From: an uncultured Pelagibacteraceae bacterium
GTDB taxonomy: Bacteria; Pseudomonadota; Alphaproteobacteria; Pelagibacterales; Pelagibacteraceae
Reading direction: 5' to 3'
DNA: 64,000 bases
NCBI GenBank assembly: GCA_902624315.1
Contig: CACNXC010000002.1
Coordinates: 124,001-188,000, forward strand
Positions 19,293 to 24,356 of this stretch are shown here, one piece after another. Under the pieces are notes generated by a model. That model had not been told where the DNA came from, did not search any database, and saw only the letters and a list, made by a program, of their open reading frames with translations. Made by a program: the position numbers and the translations under genes. Positions within the stretch are counted from its first letter, which is position 1; the number at the start of each line of letters is the position of its first letter.

Positions 19293-20234
19293 ATGTCTAA
19301 TATACTAATTATCAAACATGGATCTTTAGGAGATATATCTCAAGCTAGTGGTGCTATTCAAGACATATCTGAAAATCATAAAAATGATCAAATCCATCTT
19401 CTTACTACAAAACCATTTATTAATTTATTCAAAAAAAATCCATTTATTCATAATGTTATTTTAGACAAAAGACTACCTAGGTTTAATTTAATATATTTAT
19501 ATTTTTTAATGCGTGAAATAAAAAAACATAACTTTTCTAAAGTTTTTGACTTGCAAAATTCATCTAGAACTAATTTTTATAAGAATATTCTTTTTCCAAA
19601 AGCAGGTAAGGAAATATGGTCGAGCTCAAAAACGACTTTACCAGCAGGAAAAAATAAAAGTGAATTTGACAAAAATTCTGTTCTCGAAAGATTTGAGTAT
19701 CAATTGAAAGACTCAGGATTAAGTACATTGAATACACTAAGGCCAGATTTTAATTGGGCTGCTACAGACATAAGTGAAATTAAAAACTTTTATAAAATAA
19801 CAAAATATATTTTATTATTTCCTTTCTGTTCGCCTCATTTAACGATTAAAAAATGGCCTTATTACAACAAGCTTATTGATTTAATATCGAACAAGTATGG
19901 TGAAGAATATAAAGTTATTACAGCTCCTGGACCAACTGAAATCAGTGAAGCAAAAAATATTAATGCATTAGCTTTACTGGATAATGGAAGAGCGCTAGAT
20001 ATTTCTCAACTTACTGCCTTGATAAAAGATAGTTCATTTGTTGTTGCAAATGATACTGGTCCTGCGCACATAGCTGCTCATGTAGGAGCCAAAGGTCTTA
20101 CATTATTCGGCAAACATACAACAGCGTACAAAGTAAGTATTGAAAGAGAAAATTTTAAACCAATTGAAGTTACTGATCTAAAAAACTTAAGTGCTGAAAG
20201 AGTTTTTGAAAGATTATCTAATTCTTTAACCTAG
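19293..20234 (+). CDS. Glycosyltransferase family 9 (LPS heptosyltransferase-like)
   Basis: ILIIKHGSLGDISQASGAI; VVANDTGPAHIAAHVGAKGLTLFG. Confidence 0.85.
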   Translation: MSNILIIKHGSLGDISQASGAIQDISENHKNDQIHLLTTKPFINLFKKNPFIHNVILDKRLPRFNLIYLYFLMREIKKHNFSKVFDLQNSSRTNFYKNILFPKAGKEIWSSSKTTLPAGKNKSEFDKNSVLERFEYQLKDSGLSTLNTLRPDFNWAATDISEIKNFYKITKYILLFPFCSPHLTIKKWPYYNKLIDLISNKYGEEYKVITAPGPTEISEAKNINALALLDNGRALDISQLTALIKDSSFVVANDTGPAHIAAHVGAKGLTLFGKHTTAYKVSIERENFKPIEVTDLKNLSAERVFERLSNSLT

Positions 20235-21297
20235 TTTTTTCAATTATTCTTAAGATCACTGGCACGACAAAGAGTATAAATAACAATCTTATAATATGAT
20301 GAAAAGCAACAAAATCTGGCTCAAGGTCAAAAGCAATCGCTATTACTGCCACTTCATAAATGCCTCCAGGGCAAAAGGATAAGATCAGTGATAAAATGTT
20401 ATTATCTACAAAAAATGTAGCAACGTATGCTGCAATCAGACCTAATAAAACTAAAAGTATGGTTGCAACTAATCCATGAAAAGAGTTGGTTGCAACTTCT
20501 TTAAATGTTTTATTTGCAAACCTACATCCAACAGAAGCTCCCAAAATTAATAAACAAAAATTTATTGATGCATCAGGTAATTTGTATGACGCTATGTCAG
20601 ATATTTGTAAAACTCCACTTGCAACTAGTGTTCCAGATAATAGTGCAGCTGGAACTTTAAATTTATCAAAAAAAAATATGAACACTAATGAAACAATAAT
20701 TAATAAAATTAATTCCCAATGGTTTTGAGACATGTAATCAAATTTTTCTAATTCTAAAGCTTCATCTGGGTAAAGATTAACTATGATAAAAGGGAATAAA
20801 GTTATTATAATTATTAATCGAATTAAATGAGCTGTAGCTACTTGAGATAAATCTGATTTTTCATACTCTGCTAAAATCATTAATGGTCCTAAAGCACCTG
20901 GGGCAGCAGAAAATATTGATGTTTTTTCTTTGTAATCAGAAAATTTTTGTAAATATTTAGAAACAATTAGAATGCTAATAATAATATAAAAAAACATTAT
21001 AATTGTGGTCCAAATCCAATTAACCATCTGATTAAGTAAATTTTGATCAATATAGTTTCCAATATGTAATCCTAAAATAATTAAGATTGAGCTAAGGGCT
21101 AATCTTGGCATTATTACTTGAAAACCTTTTAGGGCAAACAAAGAGGTTGTTATCATCGGACCAATCATCCACGCAAGTGGGACCTTAAAAAAGTCAGCGA
21201 CAATCGCACTAGGAATAGAGATTACAATAACTAATAAAAATTTTTTTGATAATAATTGCCCAAAACTTTCTCGGTTAAAGGGAATCACGTTCTGCAT
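20218..21297 (-). CDS. AbrB-family membrane protein (putative ammonia monooxygenase-type transporter)
   Basis: Multi-TM with repeated GxxxG/PGG motifs (SAAPGALGPLMILAEY, SFCPGGIYEVAVIAIAF). Confidence 0.75.
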   Translation of the reverse strand: MQNVIPFNRESFGQLLSKKFLLVIVISIPSAIVADFFKVPLAWMIGPMITTSLFALKGFQVIMPRLALSSILIILGLHIGNYIDQNLLNQMVNWIWTTIIMFFYIIISILIVSKYLQKFSDYKEKTSIFSAAPGALGPLMILAEYEKSDLSQVATAHLIRLIIIITLFPFIIVNLYPDEALELEKFDYMSQNHWELILLIIVSLVFIFFFDKFKVPAALLSGTLVASGVLQISDIASYKLPDASINFCLLILGASVGCRFANKTFKEVATNSFHGLVATILLVLLGLIAAYVATFFVDNNILSLILSFCPGGIYEVAVIAIAFDLEPDFVAFHHIIRLLFILFVVPVILRIIEKTRLKN

Positions 21298-21377: not shown

Positions 21378-22358
21378 ATGAAACTAATTAAATCTTTTTT
21401 TTCAGTTTTATTCTCTGCCGCTCTTTTATTATCAACAACTACAGTCAACTCAATTGCAATTGATAAACTACATTTTGTAATTGGTGGTGGTGCTGGTGGT
21501 GGTTGGGATGGAACTGCTAGAGGTACTGGAGAAGCTTTGACAAAAGCTGGATTTTTAAAAAGCGCATCATTTGAAAATATGTCAGGTGGTGGTGGTGGAA
21601 AAGCTCTTGCTTACATGATTAATACTAAGCCAGAAAATACAATCTTAGTTCAATCAACACCACTAGTTTTGAGATCAATTACAAGACACAAAGGTTATGT
21701 CAGTGGAAGTGGAACTTTGTCTTATAAAGATGTTGTGCCAATTGCTGGAGTAATTGGTGATTATGGTGCAATTGCAGTTGCAAAAGACTCACCTTATAAA
21801 AACTTTAAAGATGTTGTTGATGCATACAAAGCAAACCCTAGTTCAATTAAAATGGCTGGTGGTTCAGTTAGAGGAAGTATGGACCATTTAATTGGTGCTT
21901 TAGCATTTCAAGCTGCTGGTGCAGATCCAAATGCTGTAGCTTATATTCCTTATGATGCAGGAGGAAAAGCATTAGCTGGACTTTTATCTGGAGAAACTCA
22001 AATTATATCTACAGGTTTAGGTGAATTAATGGGAGCAAGAGACCAAGTAAGAATCATTGGTATAACTGCGCCTGATAGAGTTGGTGATGCACCTGATGCA
22101 CCTACACTTAAAGAGCAAGGATATGATGTACAATTCGTAAACTGGAGAGGATTTTTTGGTCCTCCAGGTATGAGTAGCAAAGATAAAAAAGCTATTGCTA
22201 AAATGTTAGGCGATGTACAAAAAACTCCTGAATGGGAAGCGGTAAGAGCAAGAAATGCTTGGGTAAATATTTATAACCCAGACAAAAAGTTTGTTAAGTT
22301 TTTAAAAACTCAAACAAAAGAAATGACAGCTCTTATGAAGAAATTAGGAGTAATTTAA
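21378..22358 (+). CDS. tctC: Tripartite tricarboxylate transporter substrate-binding protein
   Basis: Signal peptide, Gly-rich VIGGGAGGGWDGTARGTGEAL; followed by TctB and TctA. Confidence 0.88.
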   Translation: MKLIKSFFSVLFSAALLLSTTTVNSIAIDKLHFVIGGGAGGGWDGTARGTGEALTKAGFLKSASFENMSGGGGGKALAYMINTKPENTILVQSTPLVLRSITRHKGYVSGSGTLSYKDVVPIAGVIGDYGAIAVAKDSPYKNFKDVVDAYKANPSSIKMAGGSVRGSMDHLIGALAFQAAGADPNAVAYIPYDAGGKALAGLLSGETQIISTGLGELMGARDQVRIIGITAPDRVGDAPDAPTLKEQGYDVQFVNWRGFFGPPGMSSKDKKAIAKMLGDVQKTPEWEAVRARNAWVNIYNPDKKFVKFLKTQTKEMTALMKKLGVI

Positions 22359-22378
22359 TCCTCTGGATTAATTAATTT

Positions 22379-22428
22379 AAAGAGCAGTGAATATAAATAC
22401 GACAAAAATTATATCACTGCTCTTTTTT
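22379..22428 (+). terminator. Terminator-like hairpin containing the tctB start codon
   Basis: AAAGAGCAGTGA(22379-22390)...TCACTGCTCTTT(22414-22425)+TTT; 12 bp plus 5 further pairs around one bulged A; tctB GTG at 22387. Confidence 0.75.
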
Positions 22429-22857
22429 ATTTTCTCAGCATTCTATTTATATACAGCTTATCAAATACAAGTTTTTGCGTTCGATGAAAATGCACCATTT
22501 AATGCAAGAACATTTCCAATTTATTTAGGATATGCTGGTTTATTTTTTTCTGGTTTAAAATTAATCTTACCAGATCCAGATACTATAAAAGTTGAACATA
22601 GAACTTTAGAATATAAAAAAACGGCAGTACTAATTGTAATTGCAATTATCTACGGGGCAACAATTTTAAAAGTAGGTTACTTTTTAACTACATCTTTATT
22701 TTTATTTGCTTCTTATTACTTTTTAGGTGAGAGAAGATGGGTTTTAATGTTTTTACTTTCTTTTCCATTTGTTGCTGGATTTATGTATTTGCTTCACGGA
22801 GTTCTTGAAATTTATTTAAGGGATCCCTTTTTAAAATCTATTGGAGTGATGGGATGA
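22387..22857 (+). CDS. tctB: Tripartite tricarboxylate transporter small membrane subunit (GTG start)
   Basis: 4-TM protein between tctC and tctA; in-frame TAA at 22378 restricts the start to GTG 22387. Confidence 0.83.
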   Translation: MNINTTKIISLLFFIFSAFYLYTAYQIQVFAFDENAPFNARTFPIYLGYAGLFFSGLKLILPDPDTIKVEHRTLEYKKTAVLIVIAIIYGATILKVGYFLTTSLFLFASYYFLGERRWVLMFLLSFPFVAGFMYLLHGVLEIYLRDPFLKSIGVMG

Positions 22858-24356
22858 CAGAAGGAATATTAATTGGTTTAACTACAGCATTATCACTTCA
22901 AAACATTTTTATGGTGATGATTGGCTGTTTCTTTGGAACAATTATTGGAATGTTACCTGGTTTAGGTCCCATGACAGCGATTGCTTTAATGATACCAATT
23001 ACTTATGGTTTTGATCCTGCAACGGGCCTGATTTTAATGGCTGGAGTTTATTACGGGGCAGTATTTGGTGGTTCTACTTCCTCCATTTTGTTAAATGCAC
23101 CAGGAGTTCCAGGAACTGTCGCAACTTCTTTTGATGGATATCCTATGGCACAACAAGGAAAAGCTGGTAAAGCATTAGCTATCGCCGCCTGGAGTTCATT
23201 TGCAGGTGGAACACTATCAGCAATTTATTTATTGTTTATGGCTCCAAGTTTATCAAAAGTAAGCTTATCTTTCAGATCGCCAGATTATTTCGCATTAATG
23301 ATTTTAGGCTTAACAGCAATAGCAGCTTTTTCATCAAAGGGACAATTCTTAAAAGCGATGATGATGGTTGTGCTTGGTTTGATGCTTGCATCTGTTGGTC
23401 AAGACTCTCTTTCTGATATTACAAGATTTACATTTGATAATATGAATTTAACAGATGGAATAAGCTTCGTTTTGGTGGTTATGTCAACATTTGCTATGAG
23501 TGAAGCCTTAACAATCATATTAAAGCGAAATGATCCAACAGCGGCAGCAAAACAAGTTTCTCTAACGGAACTTGGATCAATAAGAATTAATAAAGAAGAA
23601 AGAGGTAAAATGTATAGAACTATTCCAAGATCTTCAATTATTGGTTTCTTGATTGGAGTATTGCCTGGTGCGGGAGCCACTATTGCATCATTCTTAGCTT
23701 ATGGAATGGAAAGAAATTTAGTTAAGGATGAAGAAAAAGAAAAATTTGGAAAAGGAAGTGTAAATGGATTGTCTGCACCTGAAACAGCTAATAACGCAGC
23801 ATGCTCTGGTTCTTTTGTACCAATGTTAACTTTAGGTATACCTGGAAGTGGAACTACAGCGGTTATGCTTGGAGCACTTTTGGGATTTGGTATTCAGCCA
23901 GGTCCAAGACTTTATATGACCAATCCAGAAATTTTTTGGTCAGTGATAATGTCGATGTATATTGGAATGGTAATATTATTAATATTAAATTTACCATTAA
24001 TTCCCTACATCGCTAGGATTCTAGCGGTTCCAAAAAATTATTTAATTCCGTTGATATTATTTTTTTCAATTACAGGAATTTATGTAATGTCATTTAATAA
24101 TTTTGACATTTATTTAATGATAGGAATAGCTGTTGTTGCAACTTTTTTAAGACTTTATGATTTTCCCATGCCACCGCTAATACTAGCTTTTGTTCTTGGT
24201 GGATTGATGGAGGAGAATTTAAGAAGATCATTACTTTTAAGTAATGGATCTTGGGAGTTTTTATGGGACAGAACTCTTACAGTTTGTATATTGATCACAA
24301 CAATTCTAATTGTTCTTTGGCATATCTACAAAACTTTTACAAAAAATAAATCTTAA
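22854..24356 (+). CDS. tctA: Tripartite tricarboxylate transporter large membrane subunit
   Basis: GTIIGMLPGLGPMTAIALMIPITYG, YYGAVFGGSTSSILLNAPG. Confidence 0.95.
   Translation: MTEGILIGLTTALSLQNIFMVMIGCFFGTIIGMLPGLGPMTAIALMIPITYGFDPATGLILMAGVYYGAVFGGSTSSILLNAPGVPGTVATSFDGYPMAQQGKAGKALAIAAWSSFAGGTLSAIYLLFMAPSLSKVSLSFRSPDYFALMILGLTAIAAFSSKGQFLKAMMMVVLGLMLASVGQDSLSDITRFTFDNMNLTDGISFVLVVMSTFAMSEALTIILKRNDPTAAAKQVSLTELGSIRINKEERGKMYRTIPRSSIIGFLIGVLPGAGATIASFLAYGMERNLVKDEEKEKFGKGSVNGLSAPETANNAACSGSFVPMLTLGIPGSGTTAVMLGALLGFGIQPGPRLYMTNPEIFWSVIMSMYIGMVILLILNLPLIPYIARILAVPKNYLIPLILFFSITGIYVMSFNNFDIYLMIGIAVVATFLRLYDFPMPPLILAFVLGGLMEENLRRSLLLSNGSWEFLWDRTLTVCILITTILIVLWHIYKTFTKNKS

Follow-up and report, generated by a model that had tools for sequence, protein, structure and literature searches.

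Why should a transporter gene begin, start codon included, inside a perfectly paired stem? The question is raised by the tripartite tricarboxylate transporter operon tctC-tctB-tctA, which occupies positions 21378–24356 of a 64,000-nucleotide stretch of Pelagibacteraceae (SAR11) DNA, here called the window. All three genes were called as ORFs on the + strand and assigned by Pfam: tctC, the substrate-binding protein (21378–22358, 326 aa, PF03401, E = 7e-17), tctB, the small membrane subunit (22387–22857, 156 aa, PF07331, E = 9e-14), and tctA, the large membrane subunit (22854–24356, 500 aa, PF01970, E = 4e-153), which overlaps the tctB stop codon. A gene for an AbrB-family (PF05145) membrane protein, at 20218–21297 on the − strand, is the divergent neighbour of tctC. 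An earlier note on this DNA had proposed that the beginning of tctB is itself an intrinsic terminator, in which the same bases code for protein and hide the start codon.

The hairpin at the tctC-tctB junction

All elements of the junction lie on the + strand. The left arm AAAGAGCAGTGA (22379–22390) is the exact reverse complement of the right arm TCACTGCTCTTT (22414–22425), giving the 12-bp pairing described in the earlier note, and folding recovered the five further inner pairs around one bulged A. The left arm contains a weak Shine-Dalgarno region and, base-paired within the stem as had been claimed, the GTG start codon of tctB (22387–22389); the inner stem (five A-U pairs and the bulged A) and loop make up codons 2–9 (22391–22413), the right arm makes up codons 10–13 (Ser Leu Leu Phe), and a U-run region CTCTTTTTTATTTT (22420–22433) covers codons 12–16. 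The right arm and T-run together encode codons 10–14, TCA CTG CTC TTT TTT (22414–22428), or SLLFF, as first read. The in-frame TAA at 22378–22380 is also present. In the orthologue of the complete relative G082, which starts at the equivalent place, the next in-frame ATG, GTG or TTG is about 51 codons on.

Folding of 131 nt across the junction gave a minimum free energy of −27 kcal/mol (z = −3.6), and 0 of 200 shuffles folded equally well. Perfect stems (at least 10 bp, at least 5 G-C pairs, loops of 3–32) were counted in the complete 1.44-Mb Pelagibacter genome G082 (29% G+C) and in Markov-1 random genomes matched to its dinucleotide composition, yielding 32 versus 2, 0 and 2. The 32 stems mostly have loops of 3–6 and lie between genes, and the tctB stem differs from them in its long loop and in having a start codon within it. 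When the pattern AGCAGTGAN{12,34}TCACTGCT was searched in 101 genomes of the genus, 36 had exactly one site per genome, and a reversed control pattern had none (0); all 36 carry tctB, and the motif-less carriers among the 101 show partial or weak matches only. The built-in terminator scan of the window did not pick up the tctB hairpin, because the loop limit of the scan was 8. The hairpin at the tctB start is far beyond chance. Ranked by folding energy, tctB was 25th of 2095 candidate gene starts, so stability alone is not unique, and what is distinctive is the perfect stem and its conservation.

Another start with a stable fold was observed in G082, at G082:C1:1400240-1400572 on the − strand, where the ORF of a small membrane protein (MSLATSYLFLGIAVFLG..., very tentatively NuoK-like) begins at an ATG within a stable hairpin, AGCGGGATTTCATTTAATATTATTAAATGAGTCTCGCT, and has a start region of −26 kcal/mol over 80 nt.

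Conservation, covariation and codon choice

Absence of the pairing in orthologues would have counted against the earlier note, and this was checked with 206 related loci, which were drawn from several Pelagibacteraceae genera and comprise 112 distinct blocks and 167 distinct coding sequences. All 206 loci keep the stem with the tctB start codon inside it, and that codon is GTG in every one. With the G of GTG taken as hairpin position 0, ten core pairs are retained across the 112 blocks, the sole exception being C3-T27, in 4 of them. On a tree built from the remainder of tctB, pair G-5:C35 changed to A:T four times by parsimony, on both sides each time, and the remaining changes to core pairs are G-U wobbles (T1:G29, G-1:T31, G0:T30, G-6:T36). 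Inner pairs are re-formed as G-C or A-U in other genera, and among the 25 sequences with C at position 38 (Phe codon TTC), 21 have the pairing G at −8.

The coding sequence shows the same restraint. Codon 11 is CTG in 166 of 167 coding sequences and codon 12 is CTC in 156 of 167, with CTT in the others; in the window, CTG and CTC account for 2.1% and 2.2% of Leu codon usage. Synonymous identity is 0.92 at codons 10–12 versus 0.62 from codon 15 onward. Where synonymous changes do occur, at Lys7, Ile9, Ser10 and Leu12, the amino acid stays the same, which shows that the stretch is translated. Since rare codons are held, compensatory changes occur and the stretch is translated, the same bases are under both structure and protein constraint, and the dual-coding constraint proposed earlier gains support from the retained CTG and CTC, from changes that are either compensatory or G-U only, and from the low synonymous variation. 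Judged from these substitutions, the stem is evidently selected as a stem, on top of coding.

Two explanations that dispense with an RNA structure bear directly on these data. Were the pairing a matter of chance, or a by-product that follows from a conserved peptide, the conservation of the N-terminal residues Ile9 Ser10 Leu11 Leu12 would be in its favour; CTG and CTC are kept, however, at about 2% each and with six codons available for Leu, and the non-coding left arm upstream of the GTG co-varies. Because codon choice and upstream bases track each other, this explanation is already refuted, and we give it practically no credence. It is also very improbable that the element is a DNA-level inverted repeat, serving as a regulator binding site rather than as RNA structure: every hairpin is also an inverted repeat, and a single site per genome would suit a regulator, but the tolerated sense-strand G-U wobbles break DNA symmetry and keep RNA pairing, and the half-sites are 23 bp apart.

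Conservation has its bounds. An alphaproteobacteria-wide feature was considered and rejected, 0 of 30 class-level TctB loci placing any candidate start codon inside a perfect stem that reaches 8 bp. The gap between tctC and tctB is 28 nt in the window and 17–34 nt in relatives, and folding places a small hairpin, TTAATCC-TCT-GGATTAA (22355–22371, 7 bp in the window), across the tctC stop codon. A survey of 96 distinct spacers found this small hairpin at 6–8 bp in 70, re-formed with different bases in many relatives. Many genus g4 loci have only a weak form of it or lack it, so that it is not essential; an ancient two-hairpin element was rejected.

Variation in the U-run and the ribosome-binding region

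A U6 run follows the stem in 87 of the 112 distinct blocks (most Pelagibacter), and the U-run region is broken in some other lineages: loci L176, L191 and L192 keep the stem with no U-run to speak of, and genera g2 and g4 have a longer stem, in which CTC TTC TTT pairs with a strong Shine-Dalgarno sequence (AAGGAGG), and a tail poorer in U. As the U-run is lost in lineages that keep the stem, it is the stem that stays constant and the U-run that varies, and in lineages without a proper U-run termination cannot be the whole story. The intrinsic terminator originally claimed is thus only partly supported: most Pelagibacter have a U-run behind the stem, L176, L191 and L192 do not, and several hairpins after other binding-protein genes have none either.

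A plain intrinsic terminator, with tctC normally a single-gene transcript and tctBA transcribed mainly from elsewhere, would account for the stem of 10–12 bp and the U6 run in most Pelagibacter. The three loci that lack the U-run count against it, and tctBA would need a promoter of its own within tctC; a promoter scan covering sigma-70-type sites gave none relevant on the + strand near the junction. We regard this explanation as improbable.

The hairpin was also considered as a translational gate, in which the stem would hide the ribosome-binding site and GTG until opened by a coupled ribosome, by a protein or by a small RNA, with termination incidental. The pattern expected of a sequestered ribosome-binding site was found, in that the GTG is paired in all loci and the strong Shine-Dalgarno sequence is paired in g2 and g4; moreover, the GTG is invariant, the stem lengthens over AAGGAGG in the genera that have it, and lineages that have lost the U-run still keep the stem. 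Several observations weigh on the other side. The tctC stop codon is some 20 nt upstream of the arm, and judging by footprint size a ribosome finishing tctC would not be expected to open that arm. A search of Rfam at gathering and permissive thresholds gave no credible match at the junction. As a candidate alternative structure there is only the small upstream hairpin, with its gaps in g4. A riboswitch was rejected on similar grounds, with no Rfam aptamer and nothing upstream of the junction except tctC coding sequence and the short spacer.

Other tctB genes and their relatives bear on the gate as well. The second TctB of the genome from which the window comes (tctB2, on G000:C7) has a hairpin, AAAGGGGCAGAC-(7)-GTTTGCCCCTTT, with a U8 run in codons 8–19, straight after its own binding-protein gene, and this hairpin is kept among 24 loci with compensatory changes (AAAGGGCAAAC:GTTTGCCCTTT; AAAGGGACAAAC:GTTTGTCCCTTT). 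In a third, distant TctB (tctB3, locus L337), the hairpin lies just upstream of the ATG. With the tctB2 hairpin lying beyond its start codon, concealment of the start is not the purpose that these hairpins share; of the hidden start codon proposed in the earlier note, the pairing of GTG in every locus is upheld and a general role is not. With tctB2, tctB3 and the mostly intergenic hairpins described below all speaking against it, a gate is an unlikely explanation, though a better one than the plain terminator. As a separate observation on tctB2 (locus L309, G000:C7:55500-57600, at about 1215–1290), its ATG lies in a loop between GTACAT and ATGTAC repeats, conserved in relatives.

Hairpins after binding-protein genes

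Hairpins were surveyed across the complete genome G082 using simple ORF calls. An unbiased scan identified 28 same-strand junctions with a hairpin and T-rich tail, 24 of them with dG ≤ −15.5. A binding-protein gene lies upstream in 20 of these 24 strongest junctions versus 1 of 20 control junctions (Fisher p = 1e-7), and the genes scanned downstream of the hairpins are mostly permeases. The upstream families of the 20 are DctP, TctC, SBP_bac_1/3/8, OpuAC, Peripla_BP_4/6, NMT1 and PstS; the remaining 4 upstream genes encode a rhodopsin, an OmpA protein, a symporter and RecA. In the sole control junction with a binding-protein gene, that gene too has a perfect hairpin after it, one that lacks a U-run. 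The lowest folding energy among the junctions of this first scan (−24 kcal/mol) was seen after the proteorhodopsin gene, G082:C1:565312-566076 on the − strand.

For the converse survey, binding-protein genes were found by Pfam search, and a hairpin was accepted at dG ≤ −12 within 130 nt. A hairpin follows 16 of the 18 binding-protein genes of G082 that have a same-strand next gene versus 18 of 965 other junctions (p = 1e-23). ABC, TRAP and TTT systems were all among the genes tested, several of the hairpins have no U-run, and most of those other than at tctB are intergenic. In a second genus, g2 (400 kb of genome G215), 8 of 281 junctions have a hairpin, 5 of the 8 after binding-protein genes, including tctC-tctB; two of the three that are not after binding-protein genes lie wholly within coding sequence. 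The window shows the same arrangement, with tctC (PF03401) followed by the hairpin and then by tctB and tctA. The earlier note was sound on the hairpin as a single object, but treated it singly and missed the genome-wide class found after binding-protein genes.

Proposed function

We consider it likely, from comparative sequence evidence, that the tctB hairpin is a post-binding-protein hairpin, a leaky terminator and/or 3′-end stabiliser that would keep the binding protein in excess and has been placed inside tctB. Within tctCBA mRNA, the hairpin would mark where the tctC message has its 3′ end. A share of transcripts would end at it, as at a leaky intrinsic terminator wherever the stem has a U-run behind it, and/or it may halt 3′–5′ exonucleases, leaving the tctC part to outlast the rest of the message; by either route, TctC would be made in excess of TctBA. 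With a tctC-tctB gap of only 28 nt, the hairpin is presumably built into tctB for that reason, its left arm written as ribosome-binding region and GTG and its right arm as codons 10–14. It should also slow the initiation of tctB on messages that read through, which would shift the ratio further towards TctC; since tctB2 does without it, covering of the ribosome-binding site is taken as a secondary effect. Two points sit less easily with this proposal: the tctB loop (23 nt nominally, 12 nt counting the inner stem) is longer than the 3–6 of most other post-binding-protein hairpins and is not ideal for an intrinsic terminator, and termination would be insufficient in lineages without a proper U-run.

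We lean, by a smaller measure, towards a broader proposal, that SAR11 may use post-binding-protein hairpins genome-wide to keep binding proteins far more abundant than permeases. Where the streamlined genome leaves no spacer, the hairpin would extend into the opening codons of the permease gene; in this tctB it takes in the start codon as well, and a single sequence would then set transcript end, translation start and protein. The survey suggests a simple, directly testable way in which a genome that has few regulators may set this ratio inside single operons, nearly all of the binding-protein genes examined having a hairpin after them. At tctB, the putative device persists under strong space pressure by overlapping the protein start, and rare codons and an unchanging GTG are the price. 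For gene calling and for work on codon usage, this is a warning that the first codons of such genes cannot vary freely.

Comparison with known systems

In a search of open-access papers, neither the tctB hairpin nor a rule of hairpins after binding-protein genes was found reported for SAR11, and no report was found for tripartite tricarboxylate systems or for such a hairpin holding the downstream start codon. Translational attenuators and RNA thermometers resemble the tctB hairpin in pairing the ribosome-binding region and start codon with early codons; they differ in that no switch partner or aptamer was found here, and in that the tctB2 hairpin leaves its start codon uncovered. The tctB stem is probably too stable for a thermometer.

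Ratio setting by a hairpin within one operon is described for the intercistronic stem-loop of the Rhodobacter puf operon, as cited in PMC5927463. The tctB hairpin would likewise be an alphaproteobacterial ratio-setting hairpin within an operon, its ratio effect being putative, whereas puf comprises photosynthesis genes. To our knowledge, the puf stem-loop does not lie in the downstream start codon. At malE-malF, the same article summarises an intercistronic hairpin with which the binding-protein message outlives the permease part (Dar and Sorek 2018, PMC5927463). Both that hairpin and the present one are directly 3′ of the binding-protein gene; the malE-malF hairpin is intergenic and free of coding, whereas the tctB hairpin must encode protein, and its stabilising effect is putative.

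A further related system is found in ABC importers of Ruminiclostridium cellulolyticum, where leaky internal terminators after binding-protein genes, with lower downstream transcript, were measured (Wu et al. 2022, PMC9045158). Most of these have fewer than five U in the tail, with termination efficiencies of 21 to 96% (PMC9045158), and the looseness of the U-run at tctB can be likened to theirs. As in Ruminiclostridium, a single hairpin with a long stem, an often poor U-tract and no riboswitch lies between binding-protein and translocator genes. Unlike the intergenic terminators of those ABC operons, the tctB hairpin lies in the start and first codons of a tripartite tricarboxylate transporter gene and is held by rare codons. 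Ratio-setting hairpins after binding-protein genes are therefore known, and, as far as the literature searched extends, the form embedded in a start codon and the genome-wide use in SAR11 look new.
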